Assembly (NCBI RefSeq): GCF_003318165.1
Contig: NZ_QOCB01000020.1
Location: 1-48,975, forward strand
Direction: 5' to 3'
Source of the DNA: Psychromonas sp. B3M02
GTDB lineage: Bacteria; Pseudomonadota; Gammaproteobacteria; Enterobacterales; Psychromonadaceae
DNA length: 48,975 bases
This document shows, one piece after another, positions 33,141 to 35,315 of the stretch. The notes under the pieces were generated by a model. The model was not told the origin of the DNA. It worked only from the letters and a program-made list of their open reading frames with translations, and searched no databases. Position 1 is the first letter of the stretch; each line of letters begins with the position of its first letter. The translations under genes were made by a program, and so were the position numbers.

Positions 33141-33850
33141 TTGCCAACCAGCCTGTTTACAATTAAAAGCCTTAACTTGGTCTCCTAGCCGCCACAAAAC
33201 TTTATTAAAACCTATCTCGTTGACCGTACAATCAGGTGAACTTGTCGCTGTAGTTGGCCTTAATGGTGCAGGAAAAACCCGCTTATTGCGCTGTCTTTAT
33301 TGCGTAAATAAACCTTCTAGTGGTGAAGTTCTACTCGATGGCGAAAAAATTTGGTCTTTAACAGCTCGTCACTGTGCGCAACGCATTGCCACGGCATTAG
33401 AAGATTCCAACGCAGAGTTTGCATTGACCGTATTTGAAATGGGTTTAATATCGAAATCGACTCATTGGAAGCGAACCTCATCTGACATCATAGCAATAGA
33501 TAACCACAGTTCTGGTTATTGGAAGATAAACATCACATAAAATCAGATAGTTAAATCATGTAATAGACAATACTGATAGTGCTGCGTAGTTCAAGGCAAA
33601 TTATTGCTCAATAACGGGTTATTGAGCAATAATTTAACGCCGAAATCCTTATAAATAGCGGTGTTGACTCGCTTTTCTTATCCAGTATTGAGGTTAGAAA
33701 GTGTATTGGCTTTGCTCGATATAAGTCACCTTCAATACAGGCATTTTAATTCATTACCAGAAGGTGAACGACAGCGAGTCATTATTGCCAGAGCGATAAT
33801 ACAAGAGCCCGACGTACTTATTTTGGATAAACCAACCTTAACACTCGAAA
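33141..33850 (+). pseudogene. Iron-siderophore/heme-type ABC transporter ATPase, degenerate
   Basis: Pieces of a FecE/HmuV-type ATPase in several frames. A start-like piece (TSLFTIKSLNLVS, from about 33141) ends at a TAG. A second piece from about 33190 reads RHKTLLKPISLTVQSGELV with an intact Walker A (GLNGAGKT) and runs to a stop at 33540. After a hairpin insert, the third piece (33661 on) has a worn signature motif (LPEGERQRV in place of LSGGERQRV) and Walker B LILDKPT, in which the catalytic Glu is Lys. The C-terminal third is missing: at 33837 the gene runs into a copy of the tRNA-array terminator region. No permease or binding-protein genes remain nearby. Confidence 0.85.
33570..33655. 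repeat. Stem-loop element splitting the ABC pseudogene
   Basis: Perfect 17-bp stem (33598-33614 with 33619-33635; arms AAATTATTGCTCAATAA and complement) closed by CGGG. It is flanked by CTGCGTAGTTCAAGGC and AACGCCGAAATCC. The flank resembles the TTAGTTCAAGGCGTAATTT block of the MITE-like family, so it may be a distant member or a separate hairpin repeat. Confidence 0.65.
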
Positions 33851-33896
33851 TTTTCCCAAAAAAAAGCCTGAACATATGTTCAGGCTTTTTTAATGT
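33837..33896. repeat. 60-bp duplicate of the tRNA-array end (copy 1)
   Basis: Matches 34213-34272 at all but two positions, 376 bp apart. It contains the terminator hairpin AGCCTGAACAT/ATGTTCAGGCT at 33865-33886 with A and T runs on both sides. It joins directly to the truncated ABC gene. Confidence 0.9.
33858..33891 (-). terminator. Duplicated tRNA-array terminator (distal copy)
   Basis: Perfect 11+11-bp stem AGCCTGAACAT/ATGTTCAGGCT with A8 before and T6 after, so it can work on both strands. On the minus strand it would end any transcript through the composite tRNA-Asn. Confidence 0.85.
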
Positions 33897-33897
33897 C

Positions 33898-34058
33898 ATA
33901 CCAATTATATTAAATAAGTGAGCTAAATTTTGCGTAGGAAAAATGACTTAGTTTAAGGCGTAATTTGAAGTGAAGGGTATTTCCTTTACGAAGATTACAA
34001 CGCAGAAATAAGTTATTTTAACAAGTAAAATAGATTACTTAATTAGTATGATTGGTAT
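33898..34058. mobile_element. MITE-like element, full copy (161 bp)
   Basis: Ends ATACCAAT and ATTGGTAT are perfect inverted repeats, and the two halves pair imperfectly over nearly the whole length. It is closely similar to the copy at 48809 (blocks TTAACAAGTAAAATAGAT, AAAAATG-CTTAGTTT). It carries no coding capacity. It is inserted just past the discriminator base of the composite tRNA-Asn and has replaced the CCA-coding bases. Confidence 0.85.
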
Positions 34059-34060
34059 AA

Positions 34061-34206
34061 CTCCTCTTGCTGGGCTTGAACCAGCGACACACGGATTAAC
34101 AGTCCGTTGTATTGACCTTGGTCTCGCTCACAGTATTCAAGTAAGCGATCTTGGTACCAACTAAATAACAGTGCTCAAATTGCTCTACCAACTGAGCTAA
34201 AGAGGA
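34061..34206 (-). pseudogene. Composite tRNA-Asn, double length, no CCA
   Basis: Read on the minus strand, the first 24 nt (34206-34183) and last 49 nt (34109-34061) equal the intact tRNA-Asn genes. Between them lie 73 extra nt (34110-34182), exactly one tRNA body length. The extra part holds CACTGTTAT, like the CACTGTTAA anticodon-loop region of the neighbouring degenerate units, and an 8-bp hairpin (TCGCTCAC/GTAAGCGA). It may be a fused tRNA-like pair rather than a simple insert. The extra DNA sits at the D-stem/anticodon-stem junction, so the product cannot fold as a normal tRNA. It lies after the array terminator. Confidence 0.8.
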
Positions 34207-34212
34207 ATGAAT

Positions 34213-34272
34213 CTTAACACTCGAAATTTTCCAAAAAAAAAGCCTGAACATATGTTCAGGCTTTTGTAATGT
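34213..34272. repeat. 60-bp duplicate of the tRNA-array end (copy 2)
   Basis: Partner of 33837-33896; see that entry. This copy directly follows the last intact tRNA-Asn gene and is probably the original. Confidence 0.9.
34233..34266 (-). terminator. Rho-independent terminator of the tRNA-Asn array
   Basis: On the minus strand: AGCCTGAACAT/ATGTTCAGGCT stem followed by nine T, starting about 6 nt after the last tRNA 3' end. Confidence 0.92.
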
Positions 34273-34347
34273 GGCTCCTCTTGCTGGGCTTGAACCAGCG
34301 ACACACGGATTAACAGTCCGTTGCTCTACCAACTGAGCTAAAGAGGA
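34272..34347 (-). tRNA. tRNA-Asn (GUU), copy 1
   Basis: 76 nt with encoded CCA. Acceptor stem TCCTCTT/AAGAGGA, D-arm GCTCAGTTGGTAGAGC, anticodon arm ACGGA-CTGTTAA-TCCGT (GTT), T-loop GTTCAAG. It is the last intact unit before the terminator. Confidence 0.97.
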
Positions 34348-34375
34348 ATTGTAACTTTCTCACTGATTAATCTAA

Positions 34376-34423
34376 CAAGGATTAACAGTATCTCTATGGC
34401 TCTACCGACTAACCTAAAGAGAA
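34376..34423 (-). pseudogene. Degenerate tRNA-Asn-like unit D1
   Basis: The 5' part resembles tRNA-Asn (TTAGGTTAGTCGGTAGAGCC, CTGTTAA), but the anticodon stem is mispaired and no T-arm or matching acceptor 3' strand is found. The unit starts 76 nt upstream of tRNA copy 1, so it fills exactly one tRNA length. Confidence 0.75.
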
Positions 34424-34483
34424 ATTATAAATATTTATCGTAATTTCTTACGTTTAACTTCGATTTATCAAAGTTAAAGAATG
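34424..34483 (-). repeat. 60-nt inter-tRNA spacer with two hairpins (copy a)
   Basis: Transcribed right after tRNA copy 2. It contains an 11-bp stem (TTTAACTTTGA...TCGAAGTTAAA) and a 5-bp stem closed by a GAAA loop (CGTAA-GAAA-TTACG). The same spacer occurs at 34712-34771 and 34924-34983. It probably guides processing of the precursor. Confidence 0.8.
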
Positions 34484-34559
34484 TGGCTCCTCTTGCTGGG
34501 CTTGAACCAGCGACACACGGATTAACAGTCCGTTGCTCTACCAACTGAGCTAAAGAGGA
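34484..34559 (-). tRNA. tRNA-Asn (GUU), copy 2
   Basis: Identical over 76 nt to copy 1, with CCA encoded and anticodon GTT. Confidence 0.97.
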
Positions 34560-34587
34560 ATTGTAACTTTCTCACTGATTAATCTAA

Positions 34588-34635
34588 CAAGGATTAACAG
34601 TGTCTCTATAGCTCTACCAACTTAGCTAAAGAGGA
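34588..34635 (-). pseudogene. Degenerate tRNA-Asn-like unit D2
   Basis: Keeps the tRNA 5' end (TCCTCTTTAGCTAAGTTGGT), GTAGAGC and CTGTTAA, but loses the anticodon-stem pairing and the T-arm. It starts 76 nt upstream of tRNA copy 2. D3 lies directly upstream of it, so two degenerate units are in tandem here. Confidence 0.75.
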
Positions 34636-34663
34636 TTGTATTTTTCTTACTTATTAATCTGAA

Positions 34664-34711
34664 TACGGATTAACAGTATCTCTATGGCTCTACCAACTAA
34701 CCTAAAGAGGA
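34664..34711 (-). pseudogene. Degenerate tRNA-Asn-like unit D3
   Basis: Same type as D5: TCCTCTTTAGGTTAGTTGGT, GAGCCATAGAGATACTGTTAA, then TCCGTAT. It starts 76 nt upstream of D2. This extra unit makes the module here 288 nt instead of 212. Confidence 0.75.
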
Positions 34712-34771
34712 ATTGTAAATGTTTATCGTAATTTCTTACGTTTAACTTTGACTTATCAAAGTTAAAGAATG
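34712..34771 (-). repeat. 60-nt inter-tRNA spacer with two hairpins (copy b)
   Basis: Same as copy a; here the 11-bp stem (TTTAACTTTGA/TCAAAGTTAAA) is perfect, with a TAAG loop, and the GAAA-loop stem is kept. Confidence 0.8.
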
Positions 34772-34847
34772 TGGCTCCTCTTGCTGGGCTTGAACCAGCG
34801 ACACACGGATTAACAGTCCGTTGCTCTACCAACTGAGCTAAAGAGGA
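34772..34847 (-). tRNA. tRNA-Asn (GUU), copy 3
   Basis: Identical over 76 nt to copy 1, with CCA encoded and anticodon GTT. Confidence 0.97.
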
Positions 34848-34875
34848 ATTGTAACTTTCTCACTGATTAATCTAA

Positions 34876-34923
34876 CAAGGATTAACAGTGTCTCTATGGC
34901 TCTACCAACTAACCTAAAGAGGA
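34876..34923 (-). pseudogene. Degenerate tRNA-Asn-like unit D4
   Basis: TCCTCTTTAGGTTAGTTGGT, GAGCCATAGAGACACTGTTAA, then TCCTTG. It starts 76 nt upstream of tRNA copy 3. The D-arm can still pair (GGTT/AGCC); the anticodon stem cannot. Confidence 0.75.
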
Positions 34924-34983
34924 ATTGTAAATATTTATCGTAATTTCTTACGTTTAACTTCGACTTATCAAAGTTAAAGAATG
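34924..34983 (-). repeat. 60-nt inter-tRNA spacer with two hairpins (copy c)
   Basis: Same layout as copies a and b: 11-bp stem (one G-T pair) and CGTAA-GAAA-TTACG. Confidence 0.8.
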
Positions 34984-35059
34984 TGGCTCCTCTTGCTGGG
35001 CTTGAACCAGCGACACACGGATTAACAGTCCGTTGCTCTACCAACTGAGCTAAAGAGGA
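34984..35059 (-). tRNA. tRNA-Asn (GUU), copy 4 (first intact unit transcribed)
   Basis: Identical over 76 nt to copies 1-3, with CCA encoded and anticodon GTT. Confidence 0.97.
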
Positions 35060-35088
35060 ATTGTATTTTTCTTACTTATTAATCTCAA

Positions 35089-35136
35089 TACGGATTAACA
35101 GTATCTCTATGGCTCTACCAACTAACCTAAAGAAGA
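35089..35136 (-). pseudogene. Degenerate tRNA-Asn-like unit D5 (first in the transcript)
   Basis: TCTTCTTTAGGTTAGTTGGT, GAGCCATAGAGATACTGTTAA, TCCGTAT; no T-arm. It starts 77 nt upstream of tRNA copy 4, about 145 nt after the promoter. Confidence 0.75.
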
Positions 35137-35286
35137 ATTGTATCTTTTCACTGACTAATCTAATAACTGATCAACCGAGCCTTTATATCTAAAAGGTCTT
35201 ATCTAGCCCTTCATCATATCAATTCATTTTATAAATGAAAGGATAACTAAACAATATTTTGTCCGAGTCATCTTAAAGACGGGCGC

Positions 35287-35315
35287 AGTATATTTTTTGC
35301 AGTGAATCATGTCAA
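35287..35315 (-). promoter_or_regulatory. Sigma-70 promoter of the tRNA-Asn array, with GC-rich discriminator
   Basis: On the minus strand: perfect -35 TTGACA (35315-35310), 17-nt spacer, -10 TATACT (35292-35287), then GCGCCCG. A near-consensus core with a GC-rich discriminator is typical of stable-RNA promoters under stringent (ppGpp/DksA) control. Transcription should start near 35280. Confidence 0.85.

Follow-up and report, generated by a model that had tools for sequence, protein, structure and literature searches.

Degenerate half-tRNA units in the tRNA-Asn arrays of Psychromonas as candidate self-folding spacers

We analysed a 48,975-nucleotide stretch (hereafter the window; contig NZ_QOCB01000020.1, positions 1 to 48,975) of the 3.86-Mb draft genome of Psychromonas sp. 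B3M02, in which four tRNA-Asn(GUU) genes alternate with degenerate units of tRNA length (D units). The D units are most likely operon-borne tRNA pseudogenes that bear an unusual mark of structural selection. We lean slightly towards reading them as tandem duplicates of tRNA-Asn that died and were then reshaped, within the polycistronic tRNA precursor, into self-folding spacers. Our confidence stands at about one half because, for the genome of the window itself, the folding test gives no gain. A more tentative proposal, which we place short of an even chance, is that the Asn and Lys operons of this one genus followed a recurrent route. Along it, dead tRNA copies in a live operon would become selected 'disarmed half-tRNA' spacers: core bases may go, the D-arm hairpin is kept, the leftover strands are lost or complemented in cis, and the folding of the neighbouring identical tRNAs is undisturbed.

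In the mechanism that we envisage, all units would be co-transcribed with the real tRNAs from one promoter, and a bare copy of the 5′ half would vie with the genuine one for pairing to the 3′ half of the tRNA that follows. This competition would therefore select for units in which each tRNA-derived strand is tied up in cis. The D arm would be occupied by itself and the anticodon strand by a new hairpin (HP2), and the Asn acceptor strand is perhaps occupied by an AGAG/GAGG segment that follows the D arm as an insert; most units of the Lys arrays have lost the acceptor strand instead. RNase E and RNase P would enter at the A/U-rich linkers that separate the hairpins from the following tRNA, such that folding would influence the access of both enzymes and, through it, the level of mature tRNA. 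Fragments of the units would be degraded after processing, and new units would arise and spread via unequal recombination within the array. A role in processing, one of the options raised by an earlier note made from the letters of this DNA, would be nearest to the folding and spacing of the precursor that we favour. If this reading is right, identical tandem tRNAs have a folding problem that marks genomes visibly, dead tRNA copies are not always neutral, and the arrays, whose two operon families hold 104 distinct units, offer a natural and countable system for studying how polycistronic tRNA precursors avoid the swapping of halves between neighbours.

Layout of the Asn array

The four tRNA-Asn(GUU) genes are 76 nt each and identical throughout. 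Read along the minus strand, the order is promoter, D1, tRNA, spacer, D2, tRNA, spacer, D3, D4, tRNA, spacer, D5, tRNA, terminator (Table 1). Each D unit contains a tRNA 5′ half and anticodon-loop letters; one lies upstream of each gene, and one gene has two. Two copies of the repeat are 98% identical over 300 nt, far beyond chance. ARAGORN, Rfam and the coordinates bear out the earlier note's account of four identical genes alternating with degenerate units, in 212-nt modules, one of which is lengthened to 288 nt. Its promoter and terminator at the two ends of the array are likewise confirmed. Promoters resembling that of the window lie upstream of the Asn arrays in the 14 genomes examined.

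Table 1. Features of the tRNA-Asn array and its flanks (positions in the window)
Feature	Position	Strand	Basis or remark
Array promoter TTGACA-17-TATACT, then GC-rich GCGCCCG	35287-35315	-	11/12 consensus bases
Probable strongly eroded extra degenerate unit, in leader	35137-35181	-	by-eye likeness to 3′ part of D units
Degenerate unit D1: tRNA-Asn 5′ half, D arm, new hairpin	35060-35136	-	
tRNA-Asn(GUU) copy 1	34984-35059	-	ARAGORN, Rfam
60-nt spacer 3′ of tRNA copy 1	34924-34983	-	
Degenerate unit D2	34848-34923	-	
tRNA-Asn(GUU) copy 2	34772-34847	-	ARAGORN, Rfam
60-nt spacer 3′ of tRNA copy 2	34712-34771	-	
Degenerate unit D3, one of two in the 288-nt module	34635-34711	-	
Degenerate unit D4	34560-34635	-	
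tRNA-Asn(GUU) copy 3	34484-34559	-	ARAGORN, Rfam
60-nt spacer 3′ of tRNA copy 3	34424-34483	-	
Degenerate unit D5	34348-34423	-	
tRNA-Asn(GUU) copy 4	34272-34347	-	ARAGORN, Rfam
Intrinsic terminator stem-loop, then T-run	34238-34265	-	
Interrupted tRNA-Asn beyond terminator: nt 1-27, 73-nt insert, nt 28-73, no CCA	34061-34206	-	fold z -3.31

Attenuator hairpins were rejected as an identity for the units, as the array has a single terminator-like site, at its end. The gene adjoining the array has relatives in three named Psychromonas records, at identities of 97, 69 and 68%, which bears out the genus.

The units across Psychromonas

Asn arrays were parsed in 17 of the 24 genomes of the genus. 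The parse left out G020 (contig cut), G015, G016 and G023 (contig ends at the gene), G013 (a 10-base placeholder only), and G004 and G017 (a single Asn gene, with no unit seen). The earlier note had proposed a comparison among related Psychromonas; such a comparison finds D units upstream of real Asn genes in 15 of the 17 parsed genomes, and an Asn array without them in the other two (G022 and G011). Outside these 17, G020 has Asn units by model R1. When an order-wide sample of 295 genomes was searched, R1 matched 18 at E ≤ 1e-5, 16 of them within the genus; by coordinates, the matches in G014 and G024 fall on real tRNA genes, and we rejected a spread outside the genus for G024 on that ground; the other candidate for such a spread is an R1 hit in G086. 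A similar-looking unit in G029, which belongs to another family, was not counted because its hairpin is insignificant (z -0.22 and -0.11). An assembly artefact was rejected as well, since units are also present in G006 (on one contig) and in G019 (on two). Changes in the units are common to each genome's units, which fits the proposal of the earlier note that they were amplified along with the real tRNAs.

Analogous units are present in the tRNA-Lys array of this genome (locus L009). We read the Lys arrays of 16 other genomes and found units analogous to these in eight, matching ones in seven (G012, G019, G007, G018, G020, G009 and G008) and shortened ones in G002. G006, G021, G005 and G022 carry different degenerate Lys copies, and G011, G004, G017 and G001 have no units between their Lys genes. 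A scan of the Asp and Arg arrays of this genome for such units found none.

Left out of the Asn counts below are duplicates, both units of G029, the full-length relic G007_D3, the cut unit G005b_D4, and G014_D2 and G001_D2, which are shortened or rearranged. The z-scores of the Asn 3′ part still include G001_D2 and the pair from G029, and the swap test of helix P1 includes that pair. The D-arm count omits G014_D1 and two Lys units, which have gaps, and Lys units with N were removed.

The D units share the acceptor 5′ strand (Asn) and the D arm with a canonical tRNA (RF00005) but are without the T arm, the anticodon stem, the 3′ acceptor strand and CCA. The loss of T-arm and anticodon-stem pairing had already been recognized in the earlier note, and covariance-model scoring of D1-D5 agrees with it: in the window no D unit is among the listed matches of the Rfam tRNA model, even when E values up to 10 are allowed, and the four real genes alone pass the gathering cut-off. 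As in tandem-duplication pseudogenes, the 5′ half and the anticodon-loop letters are those of the real gene and no cloverleaf is predicted.

The bases A14, G18 and G19 hold the tRNA L-shape together. G18G19 is lost in 22/51 Asn and 10/50 Lys units, although all five units of the window retain it, and A14 is changed in 14/51 Asn units and unchanged in all 50 Lys units. The D-stem cells are paired in 195 of 204 cases in Asn units and in 198 of 200 in Lys units. Because bases of the L-shape are lost while the D stem stays paired, the D arm seems to persist as a hairpin in its own right, no longer as an element of a tRNA.

The acceptor strand is retained in 43/52 Asn units versus 11/52 Lys units. 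After the D arm, an Asn unit has a segment such as ATAGAGAC where the 5′ anticodon strand was, followed by the anticodon-loop letters (CTGTTAA in 42/52 units). Next come a new loop and a new strand complementary to those letters. The segment ATAGAGACACTGTTAAT occurs in 28/52 units, from 8/15 genomes.

Predicted folding and the readings it bears on

The hairpin HP2, built from the anticodon-loop sequence, has at least six pairs in 50/52 unique Asn units folded whole, in 49/52 folded after nt 25, and in 51/52 folded from 8 nt before the anchor. It has 11 pairs in each of the window's five units. The earlier note described these units as degenerate; its observation of the 5′ half and the lost tRNA arms stands, and the new hairpin in all five adds to it.

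We assessed whether the pairing of HP2 is kept as its letters change, using 24 representative Asn units, one of which was entered without part of its letters. The covariation score is 0.208 versus 0.093 (sd 0.016) in shuffles, with 0/500 as high, and 84.5% of HP2 cells are paired versus 77.4% in shuffles (0/500). In six slid registers the score is 0.014 to 0.065. Two of the five measures are only marginal: pairs changed on both sides (6 versus 4.0 in shuffles, 32/500) and pair types (11 versus 8.9, 41/500). The RNAalifold consensus of this alignment includes P1 and the D arm and does not include HP2. When the Asn units of different genomes exchange HP2 arms, the cost is only 0.8 kcal/mol, with 22/300 swap sets as good, and the fold z-scores of the Asn 3′ part are modest (-0.90 to -2.25 in this genome; mean -0.05 in G012). 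The cap helix P1 is moderately supported (10.42 versus 9.85 for swapped partners, 7/2000), and to the eye its insert could also be a partial TAGAGC duplication.

Arm swaps in the Lys units gave the clearest result. For the first units of nine Lys arrays, whose groups were sorted by eye, own arms have a mean of -5.66 kcal/mol versus -1.51 for arms swapped between groups, and 0/58 swaps were as good as own arms. Taken singly, eight of the nine have p<0.03 (G012, 0.078). The hairpin letters differ between groups, yet each pairs with its own partner. Step-by-step covariation or independent recruitment of hairpins would give the same result in the swap test; under either origin, the result would mean that a hairpin at the HP2 site of the Lys unit is favoured. 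The median fold z of the 46 Lys units that were long enough (out of 52) is -2.65, and 36/46 are below -2. Because the genomes are related, the p-values throughout are optimistic, and the folds are equilibrium predictions. Among the 36 species pairs in which all features are present, similarity is greater for the non-tRNA part of D than for the first 60 nt of the leader in 34, and greater than for the spacer after the tRNA genes in 24. This comparison is biased, since D enters as the best of several matches but the leader does not.

We then considered the predicted effect of the units on the next tRNA. The cloverleaf pair probability of the next tRNA is 0.95 for the tRNA alone. Across 15 genomes it is 0.736 with the real Asn units versus 0.576 with their 3′ part shuffled, and the real units are better in 46/52 units and 13/15 genomes (Wilcoxon p 4e-4). 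Shuffling the cap segment only gives 0.667, and shuffling the HP2 3′ arm only gives 0.604. In this genome the real units are no better than shuffled ones (0.630 versus 0.632), and in G001 they are worse (0.414 versus 0.452). The Lys units show no protection effect (0.893 versus 0.882; 31/52 units); most of them are already without the acceptor strand and do little harm to the next tRNA. Shuffling the tRNA-like 5′ half of the Asn units raises the value from 0.736 to 0.777, and fully shuffled spacers reach 0.85 in a 26-unit subset limited to two units per genome. In silico, a bare tRNA 5′ half upstream of an identical tRNA is thus predicted to be harmful. The Asn units would be damage limitation at best, because spacers with a shuffled 5′ half or with all letters shuffled do better. 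We read them as disarmed relics, of duplication origin and with a form that selection to fold alone may have shaped, because real units raise the pairing of the next tRNA, yet full shuffles do better still.

The units could instead be neutral pseudogenes. Unequal crossing-over would then make and homogenise dead copies, the 5′ part would look conserved only via recombination with live genes, and A/T-rich DNA would yield the hairpins incidentally. We consider this unlikely, though far from negligible. Passages of PMC7661048 describe tandem duplication as a source of additional tRNA gene copies in bacteria, albeit in stretches of 45-290 kb. The absence of units from G022 and G011, their variable number, the other kinds of degenerate Lys copy in sister species, the lack of a folding benefit in this genome and the two marginal covariation measures all suit neutrality. 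Against it stand the pair-keeping change in HP2 and the failure of every Lys arm swap, and the D-stem pairing that Asn units keep while loop positions 14, 18 and 19 change. ATAGAGACACTGTTAAT also speaks against neutrality, as conversion with the live gene cannot maintain a segment that the live gene does not have and that 8/15 genomes share. The 'carried pseudogenes' of the earlier note fit as dead duplicates, but plain pseudogenes would probably fall short as a description, since pairing persists through changes of letter and comparable units turn up in the Lys arrays. On selective constraint, then, pair-keeping change has to be set against the marginal covariation measures, relatedness, and the missing effect in this genome. 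It is rather improbable, in our judgement, that the D units yield a stable small RNA of the 3′ETS-leuZ type, for which passages of PMC6191717 provide a precedent. Several copies per transcript and a near-consensus promoter could give a high dose, and the structure is conserved; but the loop of HP2 varies in sequence from species to species, inspection by eye shows no invariant unpaired stretch other than the tRNA-derived part or its cap, and across the window and nine array loci (4227 Rfam families) no family but tRNA reaches its gathering score.

A role at the DNA level, in which the shared 5′ halves serve as short repeats that help tRNA copy number to grow and shrink and RNA structure is secondary, strikes us as very doubtful. 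The number and order of units do vary between most arrays, and several contigs end in such arrays, but identical full-length tRNAs already provide better homology, and the complementary arms that change together would be left unexplained. We find it scarcely credible that the units are decoy tRNAs binding asparaginyl-tRNA synthetase or tRNA-modifying enzymes, as the earlier note had also suggested. Most Asn units keep the anticodon-loop letters, as a decoy might, but these lie in the HP2 stem; the units have no acceptor 3′ strand, CCA, T arm or anticodon stem, and many Asn units have lost G18G19.

Known systems and relics beyond the terminators

The rtT repeats of the E. coli tyrT operon carry a tRNA 3′ end downstream of the gene. 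Like them, the D units are tRNA-derived repeats within a tRNA transcription unit, but they carry the 5′ half and lie upstream of each gene. RtT and other Rfam RNAs were rejected as an identity: no RtT match is listed for the window or the nine array loci, and weak window matches below the cut-offs were taken as chance. Repeats of a tRNA 3′ end plus terminator that follow the arrays of G010, G016 and G037 are closer to rtT than the D units are. Such repeats were seen after Asn arrays at L065, L073 and L084, in another family as well (G037), and by eye after the Phe array of this genome (L015 705-1101).

Partial or extra tRNA copies from tandem duplication (passages of PMC7661048) or from mobile-element integration (passages of PMC9897764) resemble the D units, with an origin by duplication as a further likeness. 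Integration of mobile elements leaves partial tRNA copies beside the element (PMC9897764). The D units differ from such fragments: they are 5′ halves inside an array, 76-77 nt from real genes and with only 60-nt spacers between, and they have a new conserved hairpin and occur in many species and in the arrays of two isoacceptors. The 3′ external transcribed spacer of glyW-cysT-leuZ is also a structured non-tRNA segment of a polycistronic tRNA precursor; it is a terminal trailer that pairs with RyhB (passages of PMC6191717), whereas the D units are internal, repeated, tRNA-derived and without a known target. Neither the rtT repeats nor the systems in the passages of PMC9897764, PMC7661048 and PMC6191717 combine the features of the D units. 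We found no description of such units in the open PMC literature, a search that mostly leaves out subscription journals and so does not establish their absence from print.

Beyond the array terminator, the window has an interrupted tRNA-Asn (Table 1), which the feature list of the earlier note, sound for the array itself, had overlooked. In its predicted fold the acceptor, anticodon and T arms are kept around the inserted domain, and the D-arm letters are absorbed into a longer hairpin. G018 (locus L059) has two interrupted copies, one full with CCA and the second truncated; in both genomes the anticodon arm of the relic is intact and the 73-nt domain is inserted ahead of it. An apparent MITE-like repeat at about 33900-34060 of the window begins with TTATACCAAT exactly at the end of the interrupted tRNA and ends near ATTGGT, and it seems to have replaced the CCA end. 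L019 has ATACCAATCA stretches similar to this repeat. Two plus-strand fragments of the window (33220-33540 and 33661-33921) match successive parts of Pfam ABC_tran and are probably one broken ABC-transporter ATPase gene adjoining the repeat element.

Other arrays also have relics past the terminator, including three identical 89-nt relics in G019, and several retain both tRNA halves. An annotation warning follows from these relics, which score up to 46 bits as tRNAs (the G019 relics reach this value) despite a replaced anticodon arm. They are probably little transcribed and would fit the picture of disarmed spacers only in part; the full-length relic inside the array of G007 is an exception to it. 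At L056, L054, L055, L067, L052 and L053, beyond or within Asn arrays, tRNA-Asn-like relics have the anticodon arm after GGACTGT swapped for CCTSTTTTGAAGGTATAG-like letters. Some of these are in tandem with their own terminator, and ARAGORN assigns odd tRNA isotypes to some.

Conserved trailer letters, (A)CGAGTC..GACTTAAAA, lie 3′ of real tRNA-Asn genes at L052-L056, L061, L065 and L069; these letters are missing from the 60-nt spacer of this genome and are present in G011, which is without D units. Near its fMet, Leu and Pro genes this genome also has relics whose anticodon arm is altered (L012 1063-1159, G000:C120:54997-55091, L016 92-187, L021 545-634 and L011 1005-1284). Counting this one, Leu relics occur in 3 and Pro relics in 2 of the 24 genus genomes (E ≤ 1e-18).
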